Positions 4,688 through 18,199 of a DNA stretch of 52,442 bases are shown in pieces. Position 1 is the first letter of the stretch. Every line of letters begins with the position of its first letter. This DNA comes from Candidatus Magasanikiibacteriota bacterium (lineage in GTDB: Bacteria; Patescibacteriota; Patescibacteriia; Magasanikbacterales; UBA922), in assembly GCA_903837125.1 (NCBI GenBank), contig CAILTG010000094.1, forward strand, positions 1-52,442. Reading direction: 5' to 3'. A model generated the notes under the pieces. The model searched no databases. It saw only the letters and a program-made list of their open reading frames with translations, and had not been told where the DNA came from. The position numbers were made by a program, and so were the translations under genes.

Positions 4688-6097
4688 TTATTCTCCACCC
4701 TCATCTTTATCTCTACTTTTCAACATTTCCAGCAAATCTTCCCTTTTTTGATGAAATGTTTTAATCGCATCCAATAAATGATCTTCACTATCCACAATTT
4801 GATAAAATTCATCATCTTCATCATTAACAGTCCCTAGTTTATGCACCATTACTTCTTTAATAAAAGCCAACAATGGTTCCCAATACTTATGATTATAAAG
4901 CAACACCGGCATGGGTTCCATTTTTTTAGTTTGAATCAAAACCAGCACCTCAAATAATTGATGCAAAGTGCCAAAACCGCCAGGCAAAAATACAAAGGCA
5001 GTGGCCGGCGAGGTAATAATTAACTTACGAATGTAGGGAAATTGGAAACCGATGGCCTTGGTTAAATAAGCATTTTTTCGCTCTTTATAACCATATTTAA
5101 TATTAATGCCAATTGATTGTCCGCCGATTTCAAAAGCGCCACGCGACACTGCCTCCATAGTACCAGGACCGCCACCCGACACAACTGAAAAACCTTCTTT
5201 AGCCAAACGTTGTCCCACACGATAAGCTACTTGATAATATTCACTTTCAGTAGTAATATTTTTTGTACCTAAAACATTAACACTATTTTTAATACCGGTT
5301 AAAAACTCAAAACCATCAACCATTTCAGCCATAATGCGAAAAATCTTCCAATCCAATTTTTGCCCGTTCTGAAAATGGTGTGGCGACAACTCGGATTCCA
5401 CTTCTCGATCTTTAGTATTTTTAATAAATTGATATGCTTCTTCGGCGGTTTCCACCAAATGCCAGCTATCAATCACACTAGGCAAGACTGACCCAATCGG
5501 CACTGCTTTTTGGCGTAAAAAATCTATAAGCGGCTGCCAAAATTCTTTACCAACCAGTACAATCGGCACCCGCTGCATTTTATTCATATCCATTAAGTCC
5601 ACAATTTCAAAAAATTCATCCATGGTTCCGTAACCACCAGGAAAAAATACAAAAGCATTGGCTGGTGAAGTAAGCATTACTTTACGCGTAAAAAAATAAT
5701 AAAAACCAGTAGACTTTTTTACATATTGGTTAACTCTTTGTTCAAATGGCAGTTGGATATTGATGCCAATTGATTCTCCACCTCCATCATAAGCGCCATG
5801 ATTTCCCGCCTCCATAATACCCGGACCCCCGCCGGTAATTACCGTAAAATCATTTTCTGCCAAAAGTTTTCCCAAATCATAAGCAACCAAGCTATACTTA
5901 TTATCATGATGCAGTCGGGCTGAACCCAAAATAGTTACTTCATTCTTAAATTGGGATAAAAACTGATAACCTTCTACAAACTCAGACATAATGCGAAAAA
6001 TTCGCCAGGTATCACGATAATCACCCTCATTATTTATACTATAACTAAAATCTTTATCTTTTTGCTGAATTGCTTTTTTTATTTCTTCTTCACGCAT
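4688..6097 (-). CDS. Tandem double LOG-family (lysine decarboxylase-like) protein
   Basis: The 469-residue protein consists of two LOG/TIGR00730 Rossmann domains in tandem. Copy 1 has GGGPGIMEAG (89-98), RK (138-139) and PGGYGTMDE (153-161). Copy 2 has GGGPGTMEA (308-316), RK (357-358) and PGGFGTLHQ (372-380). LOG proteins are nucleotide 5'-monophosphate phosphoribohydrolases whose PGGxGTxxE glutamate is catalytic. Copy 1 keeps it (E161); copy 2 has Gln (Q380), so the second half may be a pseudo-enzyme or a regulatory half. Normal LOG proteins are single domains of about 180-250 residues. The gene follows a small acidic gene by 29 bases. Confidence 0.85.
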   Translation of the reverse strand: MREEEIKKAIQQKDKDFSYSINNEGDYRDTWRIFRIMSEFVEGYQFLSQFKNEVTILGSARLHHDNKYSLVAYDLGKLLAENDFTVITGGGPGIMEAGNHGAYDGGGESIGINIQLPFEQRVNQYVKKSTGFYYFFTRKVMLTSPANAFVFFPGGYGTMDEFFEIVDLMDMNKMQRVPIVLVGKEFWQPLIDFLRQKAVPIGSVLPSVIDSWHLVETAEEAYQFIKNTKDREVESELSPHHFQNGQKLDWKIFRIMAEMVDGFEFLTGIKNSVNVLGTKNITTESEYYQVAYRVGQRLAKEGFSVVSGGGPGTMEAVSRGAFEIGGQSIGINIKYGYKERKNAYLTKAIGFQFPYIRKLIITSPATAFVFLPGGFGTLHQLFEVLVLIQTKKMEPMPVLLYNHKYWEPLLAFIKEVMVHKLGTVNDEDDEFYQIVDSEDHLLDAIKTFHQKREDLLEMLKSRDKDEGGE

Positions 6098-14533: not shown

Positions 14534-15919
14534 ATGCAATTAAATCTCTTCAGCACTCTCACTCACAAAAAAGAGCCCTTTTACCCCCTTCGTGGCAAGT
14601 CTGTAGGTCTTTATACTTGTGGCCCCACGGTTTACAACTATGCTCACATTGGCAACCTGCGCACCTATGTTTTTGAAGATATCTTAAAACGTGTTTTAGA
14701 ATACAATAAATACAAAGTAAAGCAGGTCATGAACATTACTGACGTTGGCCATCTCACTTCCGACGCCGACCAGGGTGAAGATAAATTGGAAAAAGGCGCA
14801 GCCCGCGAACACAAAACTGTTTGGGAAATCGCTGAATTTTATACTAAAAAATTTCAGGAAAATTTAAAAGATTTAAATATAGAAAGTCCGAATATTTGGT
14901 GCAAAGCCACTGACCATATTCCAGAACAAATTAAATTAGTACAAACTTTAATTGATAAAGGCTATACTTATAAAACTTCAGACGGAATTTATTTTGATAC
15001 CACAAAAATTTCTGACTATGGCAAGCTGGCCAATTTAAAAAACCAAGAACTTAAGGCTGGTGCCAGAATTGACATGGGCGAAAAGAAAAATCCCCATGAT
15101 TTTGCGCTATGGAAATTCTCCCCTACTGGCTCAAAACGCCAAATGGAATGGAACGCTTTTGGTAAAAAAGGCTTTCCTGGCTGGCACCTTGAATGCTCAG
15201 CCATGAGTATGAAATATTTAGGCGAACAATTTGATATTCACTGTGGGGGAATTGATCATGTGTCAATCCACCATACGAATGAAATTGCGCAGTCTGAAGC
15301 TGCTACTGGAAAAAAGCCTTGGGTTAAATATTGGTTGCATGGTGAATTTTTGGTTATGAACCAAAGTAAAATGGCTAAATCAACTGGCAACTTTGTAACT
15401 TTAGAAACTTTAAAAGAAAAAAAAATCGATCCCCTAGCCTACCGGTATTTATTATTGCAGACACATTATCGCAAGCAATTGACGTTTAGCTGGGAAGCGT
15501 TGGAAGCGGCACAAACAGGGTTGGAGCATTTATACGGAGAAGTCTTTAAAGTCAAAAGTCAAAAGTCCATAATGTTTAAAAGCCACGAGGTTGAAAATAA
15601 ATTTCAAGAAGCGATAAATGATGACCTAGATATGCCAAAGGCACTAGCGGTTGTTTGGGAGGCCATAAAAAATAATCAAATTGATTATAAAACGCTATTA
15701 AAATTTGATGAAGTGCTGGGGTTAAATTTGAAAAAGATCAAAAGATTGAAAGATCAAAAGATTGAAATGCCAGACGAGGTAAAAAAACTTTTGGATTTGC
15801 GTCAACAAGCCCGCGAACAAAAAAACTGGACTGAAGCTGACCGTTTACGCGAAGAAATTAAAAAATTAGGATTTACTGTAGAAGACGCCAAGGATGGACA
15901 AAAAATTTCTAAGTTATAA
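14534..15919 (+). CDS. cysS: Cysteinyl-tRNA synthetase
   Basis: The class I synthetase charges tRNA-Cys. The HIGH-type motif is HIGN in [14 protein letters not shown], and the KMSKS-type motif is KMAKS. Zinc ligands are Cys in YTCGPTVY, Cys in WHLECSAM and the His/Glu of [10 protein letters not shown]. Length (461 residues) is normal. The frame opens 16 codons earlier, but the ATG at 14534 fits the family and lies 9 bases after TATAAT. Two in-frame short repeats occur in the C-terminal helical region: KVKSQKS (15548-15568) and a perfect 16-base duplication giving [11 protein letters not shown] (15734-15765). It is convergent with the next gene, 2 bases apart. Confidence 0.96.
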
Positions 15920-15921
15920 AA

Positions 15922-17370
15922 TTACCCAAACTTCACATCATCTTGCGCAATTACATGACCTGAATCAGTTAATAAATCATTTTTACCCGGAACACGGTTT
16001 GTCTGAACTTTTTTTCCAGTTTTATCAAGTTCTTTAGCAAGGAGTGACGCCACACTTTCCGTTGGCAAGCCTGCTGGCGGTTCGCCACGTTTACCAACTG
16101 CTTTCTGAACCAAAGGAGTTTTAACGTGGGACATGGGAAAATGCCAAATACTGGCCAATTCTTCAATATTTAAAACAAAAGAATTGCCCCCGGTTTTCAT
16201 TTTTCGCTTTTTATAGGCCCTAATTAACAAATTTTTTCGATAACTACGCCTGGCTTGTTTAAAAAAGAAAGCGGCCACAGTTTTGTAAACCGGTATAATA
16301 GAATTAGAATTAGGAATATTAAACTGAGTCACTGCACCTATTAAAGCATTCACCCCATGCTCTGGCTTAAACATTTCTTTTCTGGCTGCGTATACTCCGC
16401 GCATTTTAGTCTTAAAACCAATTTTTTGAATTTTAGTTTCCATTCCCTCTAACAACTTTCCTTGCCCTGGAGACAATACTTTTTTTTCTTCTTTTTCTTC
16501 ATGTTCCTCGTACTCACTAGCCATACGACCAAAAACTTGATCACCAATAAATTCTATAGCTTTTAAACCATAGGTTGGTATATTATCTAAAACACCAGCC
16601 ACTCCACCACCATGTGCATGGCTGGATTTTCCTTCAGTAATTTCTTCCATTTTTTTAATCACTTGTTCTTTCCAGGAATTAGAAATTGGCTCTACCAAAA
16701 TTTGAAACCACATTTGTTCTCCGGCACCTAAACGTGAAAAACTTTCCAAAAAAGTACCCATAGGATCCTTTAAAACAGTGTCCTTAGAAATTTTATGCTC
16801 AAATTCAGTGTAGGAACGAAGTGGCTGGCCGAAATGCTCGGCTAAACCAAAATCCGCTGCCCAAACGTCATAATATTCATTGGGATAATGACTGGGAACC
16901 AAATCTACATAATCCTCTACTTCAGTAATCTCGGCATCAGAATATTGTGCATAAACTGCTGCTTCCACCAAATCACGAAATCTTTCTTCAGTTCTAATTA
17001 AAAACTGAATATAACCCTCAATACTAATAATTTCAAAACTAAACCAGCGCTGTTTAAATCCTAAAATAAAACGTTCTTCCAAATCTGGATTATTAAAAGC
17101 ACCAGCTAAATGATTGAATAACTGTTCTACAGCCTTTGGGGTTTGCACATTCATAGGTGGCACATCCACTGCCAAAAGTACCCACTTCCATTGACTAACA
17201 TATAATTTTTGCTTGTATTCCAAAAACATATGAATAACTGTATAAAGTAACAGCCAATCCAAAACAACCCAACCTAAAATAGCCATCAATTGAATTTCAA
17301 TACTGGTAATATCTTGTGACCAAAAACCACTAAAGGCTCCTGTATTAATTGTAAATAAGCCAAAATCCAT
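15922..17370 (-). CDS. Large membrane-anchored protein of unknown function
   Basis: The 482-residue protein has an N-terminal hydrophobic segment (about residues 23-45), then a large soluble region rich in aromatic residues (FKQRWFSFEIISIEGYIQF, EYYDVWAADFGLAEHFGQP) and a Lys-rich C-terminus. I recall similar proteins in other Patescibacteria, often near a VirB4/TraC-like ATPase; no such ATPase is in this window, and the assignment is from memory only. The frame opens 11 codons upstream, but those codons are the inverted repeat at 17376-17405; the ATG at 17370 (MDFGLF) is the likely start. Confidence 0.65.
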   Translation of the reverse strand: MDFGLFTINTGAFSGFWSQDITSIEIQLMAILGWVVLDWLLLYTVIHMFLEYKQKLYVSQWKWVLLAVDVPPMNVQTPKAVEQLFNHLAGAFNNPDLEERFILGFKQRWFSFEIISIEGYIQFLIRTEERFRDLVEAAVYAQYSDAEITEVEDYVDLVPSHYPNEYYDVWAADFGLAEHFGQPLRSYTEFEHKISKDTVLKDPMGTFLESFSRLGAGEQMWFQILVEPISNSWKEQVIKKMEEITEGKSSHAHGGGVAGVLDNIPTYGLKAIEFIGDQVFGRMASEYEEHEEKEEKKVLSPGQGKLLEGMETKIQKIGFKTKMRGVYAARKEMFKPEHGVNALIGAVTQFNIPNSNSIIPVYKTVAAFFFKQARRSYRKNLLIRAYKKRKMKTGGNSFVLNIEELASIWHFPMSHVKTPLVQKAVGKRGEPPAGLPTESVASLLAKELDKTGKKVQTNRVPGKNDLLTDSGHVIAQDDVKFG

Positions 17371-17375
17371 AACAG

Positions 17376-17405
17376 GATACAAAATACACGTAAAAATATA
17401 CAAAA
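17376..17405. repeat. Left 30-bp inverted repeat flanking the four-helix-bundle gene
   Basis: This 30-base sequence is the exact reverse complement of 17853-17882. It begins 2 bases before the stop codon side of the four-helix-bundle gene and runs up to 5 bases from the next ORF's start codon, adding spurious codons to that frame. Confidence 0.9.
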
Positions 17406-17407
17406 TT

Positions 17408-17773
17408 TTAAATTGACTCTATTTTTTGTTCTAAATAATCAATCGTACTCCATAGCATTTTTGCAATTTCATCTAACATTTCTAAACCTTGTTTAAATTC
17501 ATCTTCTACAATCCATTTTTGTGTGAAAGAAAAATACAAAATATATTTACACTCTTGAGTAGAACCATGCGAGGTTTCATAAAAATTTAACTTTACTTTT
17601 TCTTTCCTTCTAGCAAAACCCTCCACATAATTCAACATGATGGACACAGACGCCCGCTTTAATTGCGATATTAATCCATAAATTTCATCCTTTGGTAATT
17701 TATTAGCTATTTTATAACTAAAAACAACATAGGCATGAATTTTTCTTTTTAATAAATCATGAAACTTTTCCAC
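17408..17773 (-). CDS. Four helix bundle protein (S23-type)
   Basis: The 121-residue protein shows the four-helix-bundle/S23 pattern: FHDLLKRKIHAYVVFSYKIA, LPKDEIYGLISQLKRASVSI, the N-x-V-E-G-F/A-R-R segment (LNYVEGFARRKEKVKLNFYE), and a C-terminal amphipathic helix. Such proteins were first seen encoded in rRNA intervening sequences and are scattered in CPR genomes; their function is unknown. The start is GTG at 17773. The gene is exactly bracketed by perfect 30-bp inverted repeats (17376-17405 and 17853-17882), with an extra direct copy at 17801-17836. That arrangement suggests a mobile unit of about 507 bp without a transposase. Confidence 0.85.
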   Translation of the reverse strand: MEKFHDLLKRKIHAYVVFSYKIANKLPKDEIYGLISQLKRASVSIMLNYVEGFARRKEKVKLNFYETSHGSTQECKYILYFSFTQKWIVEDEFKQGLEMLDEIAKMLWSTIDYLEQKIESI

Positions 17774-17800
17774 ATTTAACTATTATTTTTTATATATTCA

Positions 17801-17882
17801 TCACGTTTGTTTTGTATATTTTTACGTGTATTTTGTCTCCTTGTCACGTTTGTTTTGTATATTTTTACGTGTATTTTGTATC
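17801..17882. repeat. Two direct 36-bp copies including the right inverted repeat
   Basis: A 36-base sequence at 17801-17836 is repeated exactly at 17844-17879, with 7 bases (CTCCTTG) between. The second copy extends into the 30-base match (17853-17882) with the inverted left end at 17376-17405. Confidence 0.9.
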
Positions 17883-17886
17883 TTGT

Positions 17887-18057
17887 TTAGTGGCTGCCGC
17901 TACCCAGCAATTTGTGAATTGCCACATAAATAACAATTACTCCCAAACCAGTCCACCACCAGCCGTGAGCACTAGAAACATAACCAGAAAAATAAGCCAA
18001 GAGTACTATTAAAGATCCACAAAATGCCACCATATGGCGAATAAAATTTTCAGTCAT
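17887..18057 (-). CDS. Small membrane protein, 56 aa
   Basis: No family recognised. Two hydrophobic segments (VAFCGSLIVLLAYFSGYVSS and WWWTGLGVIVIYVAIHKLL) make up nearly the whole protein, so it is probably a two-pass membrane protein with a His-containing tail. The frame extends 21 codons upstream, but an extended -10 box (TGTGGTATACT, 18102-18092) lies inside that extension, so the ATG at 18057 is chosen. It follows secF in the same direction after a nested palindrome. Confidence 0.6.
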   Translation of the reverse strand: MTENFIRHMVAFCGSLIVLLAYFSGYVSSAHGWWWTGLGVIVIYVAIHKLLGSGSH

Positions 18058-18091
18058 AAATTCAAGAGTTAAAAAGCTTATAATTATGTCT

Positions 18092-18102
18092 AGTATACCA
18101 CA
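18092..18102 (-). promoter_or_regulatory. Extended -10 promoter (TGTGGTATACT)
   Basis: Minus-strand TATACT (18097-18092) with TGG extension, 34 bases before the ATG of the 56-aa membrane protein. Same motif class as at 385, 4478 and 14363. Confidence 0.5.
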
Positions 18103-18128
18103 AATAAAAAAGCCAACCAAATGGCTGA

Positions 18129-18199
18129 CTTTATCCCGATTTTGCTTCGAGCAAAATCGAAGATCCTCTATTTCAATCGAAATTGAAATCGGGATAAAC
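18129..18199. repeat. Nested palindromes directly after secF
   Basis: Outer arms TTTATCCCGATTT / AAATCGGGATAAA enclose two inner hairpins (CGATTTTGC-TTCGA-GCAAAATCG and TTTCAAT-CGA-ATTGAAA). The structure starts at the secF stop codon. It could act as a terminator or mRNA 3' stabiliser, and it has the modular look of a dispersed palindromic repeat. Confidence 0.7.

Follow-up and report, generated by a model that had tools for sequence, protein, structure and literature searches.

The window, by which we mean the whole 52,442-nt stretch of contig CAILTG010000094.1 (Candidatus Magasanikiibacteriota bacterium, assembly GCA_903837125.1), carries on its reverse strand a 121-aa gene with a GTG start (17408-17773) that is framed by inverted repeats. 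The arm 3' of this gene (17371-17405, reverse strand) is an inverted copy of the outer arm 5' of it (17844-17887, forward strand), which in turn has an inner direct copy (17801-17837, forward strand) at a spacing of 43 bp. As the initial annotation had reported, 17376-17405 and 17853-17882 are exact reverse complements (30 of 30 positions), the two direct copies agree at 36 of 36 positions (17801-17836 and 17844-17879), and the ends enclose nothing but the S23-type gene and its leader. The inverted pair can be extended to 35 nt at 97% identity (17371-17405 with 17853-17887). Arms and gene together make up a unit of 516 bp (17371-17886, reverse strand), with boundaries drawn from an alignment with locus L296, and it is absent between the two bordering genes in 29 relatives. 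Both genes bordering this unit, and thus the empty site, are on the reverse strand: downstream lies a conserved 482-aa protein without a Pfam match (15922-17370) and upstream a 77-aa protein (17887-18120) that is kept beside the 482-aa gene and secF. The 3' arm is flush with the start codon of the 482-aa gene (TGTT directly followed by ATG), and the 5' arm reaches the stop codon of the 77-aa gene, with which it has one base in common. The annotation had also placed the left end inside the start region of the next gene. This we correct, as the TTG at 17403 is merely a mechanical ORF start and alignments of homologues begin at the ATG at 17370.

Read from the sequence, the window arms are arrays of degenerate 7-bp units, which run from outside to inside as ATACAAA, ATACACG, TAAAAAT and ATACAAA with AACANG before these. 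In the predicted minimum free energy (MFE) RNA fold of the unit the arms are paired with each other (z=-5.6). Elsewhere in the window, short tandem-like repeats similar to the array words (AAAGTC AAAAGTC; AAAAGATC AAAAGATTG) occur within the cysS coding sequence at 15550-15580 and 15735-15775. Between the 77-aa gene and secF (18130-18198), a 13-bp perfect inverted repeat, TTTATCCCGATTT, surrounds two nested hairpins and has a near match at 5948-5960.

By profile and by its modeled four-helix-bundle fold, the framed protein is a member of the S23 (23S_rRNA_IVP) family. It matches PF05635 with an e-value of 3.9e-25 (88.5 bits against a cut-off of 33.8) and TIGR02436 with an e-value of 2.7e-25 (88.7 bits against a cut-off of 24), and no Pfam family besides PF05635 was matched between the repeats. 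The AlphaFold2 model has four helices at a mean pLDDT of 97, and Foldseek aligned it to XCC0516 (2GSC; TM 0.86) and also to BT_0352 (2RLD). The fold is likewise that of the Avd protein of diversity-generating retroelements (DGRs), with a TM of about 0.8 both for 4DWL and for the Avd of the DGR ribonucleoprotein structures from 2024. However, the window protein scores 23 bits against the NCBIfam Avd equivalog cut-off of 80, the single reverse transcriptase match in this genome is on another contig (C19), and there are S23-bearing genomes without a reverse transcriptase, so we rejected an identification as Avd. Across 138 S23 proteins, at least 91% conservation was found (in window numbering) at Y20, E30, Q37, R40, S44, N48, E51, R55, S71 and E74, with N48, E51 and E74 essentially invariant over many phyla. 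The conservation of these last three residues exceeds what a mere scaffold would need, and the protein may have an unrecognised active site.

We searched for the empty sites that the annotation had proposed to look for at the same locus in relatives. The order secF, 77-aa gene, 482-aa gene is kept there, and the last two genes are adjacent and free of S23 in 29 of 29 relatives, from which we conclude that the window unit is an insertion at its site. One relative (G019) has a different S23 one gap further along. Outside the window's genome, window-type arms are frequent only in G029 (12 copies), which belongs to another genus. In G029 one pair of these arms, the same on both sides, frames an S23 protein 61% identical to that of the window. 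This unit adjoins a different gene, its nucleotide similarity to the window unit begins and stops at the arms, and the 77-aa/482-aa junction of G029 itself (L140) is empty. Since the site is empty in relatives, the ends are dispersed and a homologous unit with similarity ending at the arms lies elsewhere, the unit of S23 and arms is probably mobile, as the annotation had suggested. The opposite pattern, a unit kept at this locus everywhere with no further copies and no empty site, is clearly not what these genomes contain. Counting against movement as a cassette, an excision product was not seen, nor, on inspection of this site by eye, was a direct target duplication beside the window arms; the empty sites available were those of other species.

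The search for further copies of the ends, also proposed by the annotation, covered the 1.35-Mb genome of the window (G000). The 24-bp core of the ends has 35 copies within 3 mismatches in this genome and none for a reversed-pattern control, and the 3 matches inside the window compare with 0 in 100 dinucleotide shuffles, so chance can be excluded as the origin of these repeats. Some of the dispersed arms stand alone, and others face each other in inverted pairs. Of 30 copies examined, roughly half have their end no more than 10 bp from a stop codon, several more adjoin a start codon, and a few overlap predicted ORFs. Arms at a gene boundary have their outer end toward the gene, and their orientation is constant relative to the intergenic gap and not to the direction of transcription. 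Further, window-type arms stand beside or on either side of intrinsic terminators (L014, L020, L016, L018, L029, L036), bracketing them on both sides at L014 and L020. Because the terminator sequence varies from copy to copy, these arm pairs are not simple miniature inverted-repeat elements (MITEs), whose interior would be fixed. In solo arm pairs, which measure about 85 bp (L303, L298, L297 and similar), a CCATG-type arm is often combined with an ACGTG-type arm, and the two types resemble distinct left and right ends. The genome has one further S23 gene, flanked by a perfect 24-bp inverted repeat unrelated in sequence to the window arms, and dispersed copies of its ends were not found in G000.

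Arms also surround host hairpins at the junction of nusG and rplK, where some relatives have S23 and others lack it. A leader hairpin containing GCTTCT is conserved ahead of rplK in most relatives, and at four of these junctions (L289 in G008, L287 in G021, L290 in G033 and L288 in G036) arms of different words bracket the host hairpin, whether or not an S23 gene accompanies them. The words differ at this same site even between genomes of the same genus (G008/G033 and G021/G036), and five nusG-rplK loci gave no Rfam match above the gathering score. A simple cut-and-paste unit with a fixed interior leaves the bracketing of terminators and of the rplK leader unexplained. Given this pattern, an individual arm might be moved or copied from one side of a hairpin to the other.

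The same placements could be those of a regulator, in which S23 would act as an RNA-binding ring similar to TRAP, controlling array-bearing mRNAs along with its own mRNA, and the gene with its sites would be spread only by ordinary horizontal transfer and recombination. Such a role would fit the closeness of the arrays to stop and start codons in G000 and the arm pairs around terminators and the rplK leader hairpin, and translational regulation has been argued for TAACTGA heptamers located just upstream of start codons (MacGregor 2015, PMC4679880). However, an mRNA-binding regulator would not account for an orientation that follows the gap instead of transcription, it leaves the inverted 3' arm without a role, and the sites that S23 and its arms occupy in different genera are unrelated, with no similarity beyond the arms. 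It would thus seem unlikely that regulation combined with ordinary transfer is the whole explanation.

The inverted arms are not peculiar to the window. For each gene we compared the two flanks by local alignment, the upstream one as it stands and the downstream one reverse-complemented. In relatives, the median score was 18.75 for S23 genes (n=62) and 8.5 for control genes with intergenic flanks from the same stretches (n=151; Mann-Whitney p=5.6e-26), and a threshold of at least 14 was passed by 79% and 4.6%, respectively. Direct-repeat scores did not differ between S23 and control genes in relatives, which indicates that inversion, and not repetition alone, marks S23 genes. The pattern recurs in 80 named genome contigs of the Bacteroidota, many candidate phyla, Acidobacteria, Planctomycetes, Proteobacteria and others, where 69% of S23 genes and 8% of controls have inverted flanks (p=2.8e-12). 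Arms were also found to frame S23 genes on plasmids of cyanobacteria, Riemerella and Azospirillum and on 13 of 19 viral contigs. Some cyanobacterial plasmid S23 genes (L193, L194, L200) are inside CRISPR operons (cas6/cas4 and cas10/cmr3), with arms included at least in L194 and L200.

Most of these arms are arrays. In relatives, 94 of 128 arms are significantly periodic compared with 2.6 expected, with a median of 4.5 units and periods of 7 bp (53 arms), 9 bp (26) or 8 bp (15) and no others. In the 80 named contigs, 116 of 160 arms are periodic, 82 of them at 7 bp. Over both sets, periods other than 7, 8 or 9 bp are all but absent. Among 77 loci with strong periodicity in both arms, the two have an equal period at 71. 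A strict mirror-register test, which is moderately informative, clearly preferred one register at 19 of 95 loci. About 20-30% of S23 genes have no clear arms. We regard the association of S23 with arrays, and its generality, as practically certain. The initial annotation had overlooked the 7-bp arrays and this family-wide rule, along with the arm pairs that bracket host hairpins at other loci.

Such arrays and palindromes might in principle be a by-product of intergenic hairpins, growing there through slippage and template switching, with S23 merely inserted or tolerated at these places. The occasional bracketing of host hairpins is compatible with this origin, and tandem units and extra arm copies (17801-17837 in the window; 842 and 863 in L296) do suggest local duplication. 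However, the control genes of the same loci also have intergenic flanks and are rarely armed. Moreover, the repeat word follows the S23 subfamily over genomes and contexts. For 64 S23 loci, with pairs that have homologous neighbours (shared gene contexts) excluded, protein similarity correlates with arm similarity (Mantel r=0.43, p<=5e-4; highest of 2000 permutations 0.11), and the relation vanishes in a control with one arm reverse-complemented. Arms match in 69% of pairs at a protein similarity of at least 0.7 and in less than 1% below 0.5. The G029 unit, with its window-type arms and an S23 close to that of the window, provides an out-of-sample case. This covariation disfavours a by-product of slippage, which we consider most improbable.

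Similarly, arrays of one word, AAAGGCTTA, are present in 6 of 8 genomes with the cognate S23 compared with 8 of 51 without it (Fisher p=0.0014; 0.02 within the family). The co-occurrence is imperfect, as orphan arrays exist in some genomes without the cognate S23; the window's genome has 7 such arrays on several contigs although it lacks that protein. Word and protein may covary because the protein binds the word or because the unit is inherited as a whole, and these data do not tell the two apart. We are fairly confident that S23 recognises its arrays.

The annotation had further proposed that the unit is mobilised in trans, and for a transposase in that role we find no support. This would make the unit a derivative of a transposon with terminal inverted repeats, a MITE that contains a passenger gene and depends for its movement on a transposase from another locus, and the perfect terminal inverted repeats, the solo pairs of about 85 bp and the dispersed ends are what one would expect of it. 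However, the same architecture is built from unrelated words across phyla, the word is tied to the S23 protein and not to any transposase, and the target duplication was not seen. Further, several S23 genes are present in each of G009, G036, G031 and G025, while Y1 transposases and reverse transcriptases, the two families searched, are both missing there, which rules out that a co-resident member of either is required. We therefore judge a transposase-driven MITE to be very unlikely. No Y1_Tnp match was found in the window's genome. In G021, 27 Y1-transposase fragments lie mostly at contig ends, as in a recent IS200/605-like expansion that breaks the assembly.

Rather we hypothesize, with a probability of roughly 60%, that S23 and its arms form a mobile cassette whose protein binds its own arrays, a system that works like RAYT/REPIN and is neither a RAYT nor an rRNA intervening sequence (IVS). 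Our confidence in the details of the mechanism is low. In the cassette, an S23 gene would be enclosed by inverted arms that consist of about five degenerate 7-bp units each. A ring of S23 would read its own array as single-stranded RNA or DNA with one unit per protomer, a stoichiometry suggested by the 4-5 units per arm and the five chains in 2GSC. Single strands would be favoured because a 7-bp period misfits the pitch of B-DNA. RNA winds round TRAP in a way that offers an analogy for an S23 ring with its array, and Avd is pentameric; a search of open-licence papers gave nothing useful on RNA binding by the Avd pentamer. Recognition of the array by S23 would make the protein and its repeat word evolve together. 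The cassette would move as a whole into intergenic gaps, flush with gene boundaries, and arms without a gene, whether single or in hairpin-forming pairs, would be its dispersed non-autonomous relatives as REPINs are to RAYTs. For strand transfer our guess is that the host's replication or recombination would act on the hairpin, as S23 lacks a known nuclease motif and is not consistently accompanied by a Y1 transposase or a reverse transcriptase.

To our knowledge, S23/IVP proteins have had structures without a function since 2006-2007, the rRNA IVSs have no known route of movement, and the heptamer repeats reported from several lineages have been left without a mechanism. IVSs with an S23 ORF and a terminal stem are sporadic and thought to be horizontally acquired (PMC4990558), and 23S_rRNA_IVP ORFs also occur in rRNA insertions of the CPR (PMC11270868). 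Like the IVSs of Coxiella, Leptospira and Salmonella, the window unit has an S23-family ORF between inverted repeats that form a long stem, with complementary ends (30 of 30) that pair in the MFE fold. Unlike them, it is intergenic between two protein genes and not inside a 23S or 16S rRNA, and its ends are arrays of 7-9 bp units that are dispersed alone and matched to the protein subfamily.

The arms also resemble the short tandem repeats described by genome surveys. Heptamers have been reported in Beggiatoaceae, cyanobacteria and Bacteroidetes, with TAACTGA found across unrelated phyla by a mechanism that was not evident (PMC4679880), and arrays of GGGAATC are on record for Xanthomonas and of GGGGA(C/T)T for Nostoc, those of X. 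campestris including 70 inverted pairs that converge (PMC4692102). A term search of these two papers found no mention of S23, nor did we find in the open-licence literature a paper joining a four helix bundle protein to intergenic tandem repeats, so earlier notice elsewhere is possible. The cyanobacterial STRR and heptamer arrays are, like the window arms, tandem, degenerate, intergenic and multi-copy (period 7, 4-5 units and 35 copies in our case), and arms of this architecture surround cyanobacterial S23 genes as well. With S23 genes of distant phyla having matching inverted heptamer arrays, the protein family and the repeats appear to be one testable system, and the repeat families of many genomes gain a candidate cognate protein. 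More tentatively, S23/IVP proteins could be cognate ring-shaped readers of 7-9 bp arrays throughout the bacteria, forming a mobile system without a transposase in which the rRNA IVS would be the rRNA branch and STRR-like heptamers the footprints.

The closest system in its working is RAYT/REPIN, in which a protein gene is flanked by inverted short repeats that are dispersed singly and as hairpin-forming inverted pairs (PMC3116915). The arms of S23 are likewise scattered over the genome, both alone and as inverted pairs, and their word corresponds to the type of protein. Unlike a RAYT, S23 is a four-helix bundle without the HUH/Tyr transposase signature, and its repeats are tandem 7-9 bp arrays whereas REPs are GTAG palindromes. 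If our reading is true, S23 and its arrays would be a protein-repeat pair comparable to RAYT/REPIN, built on a protein without a known nuclease.
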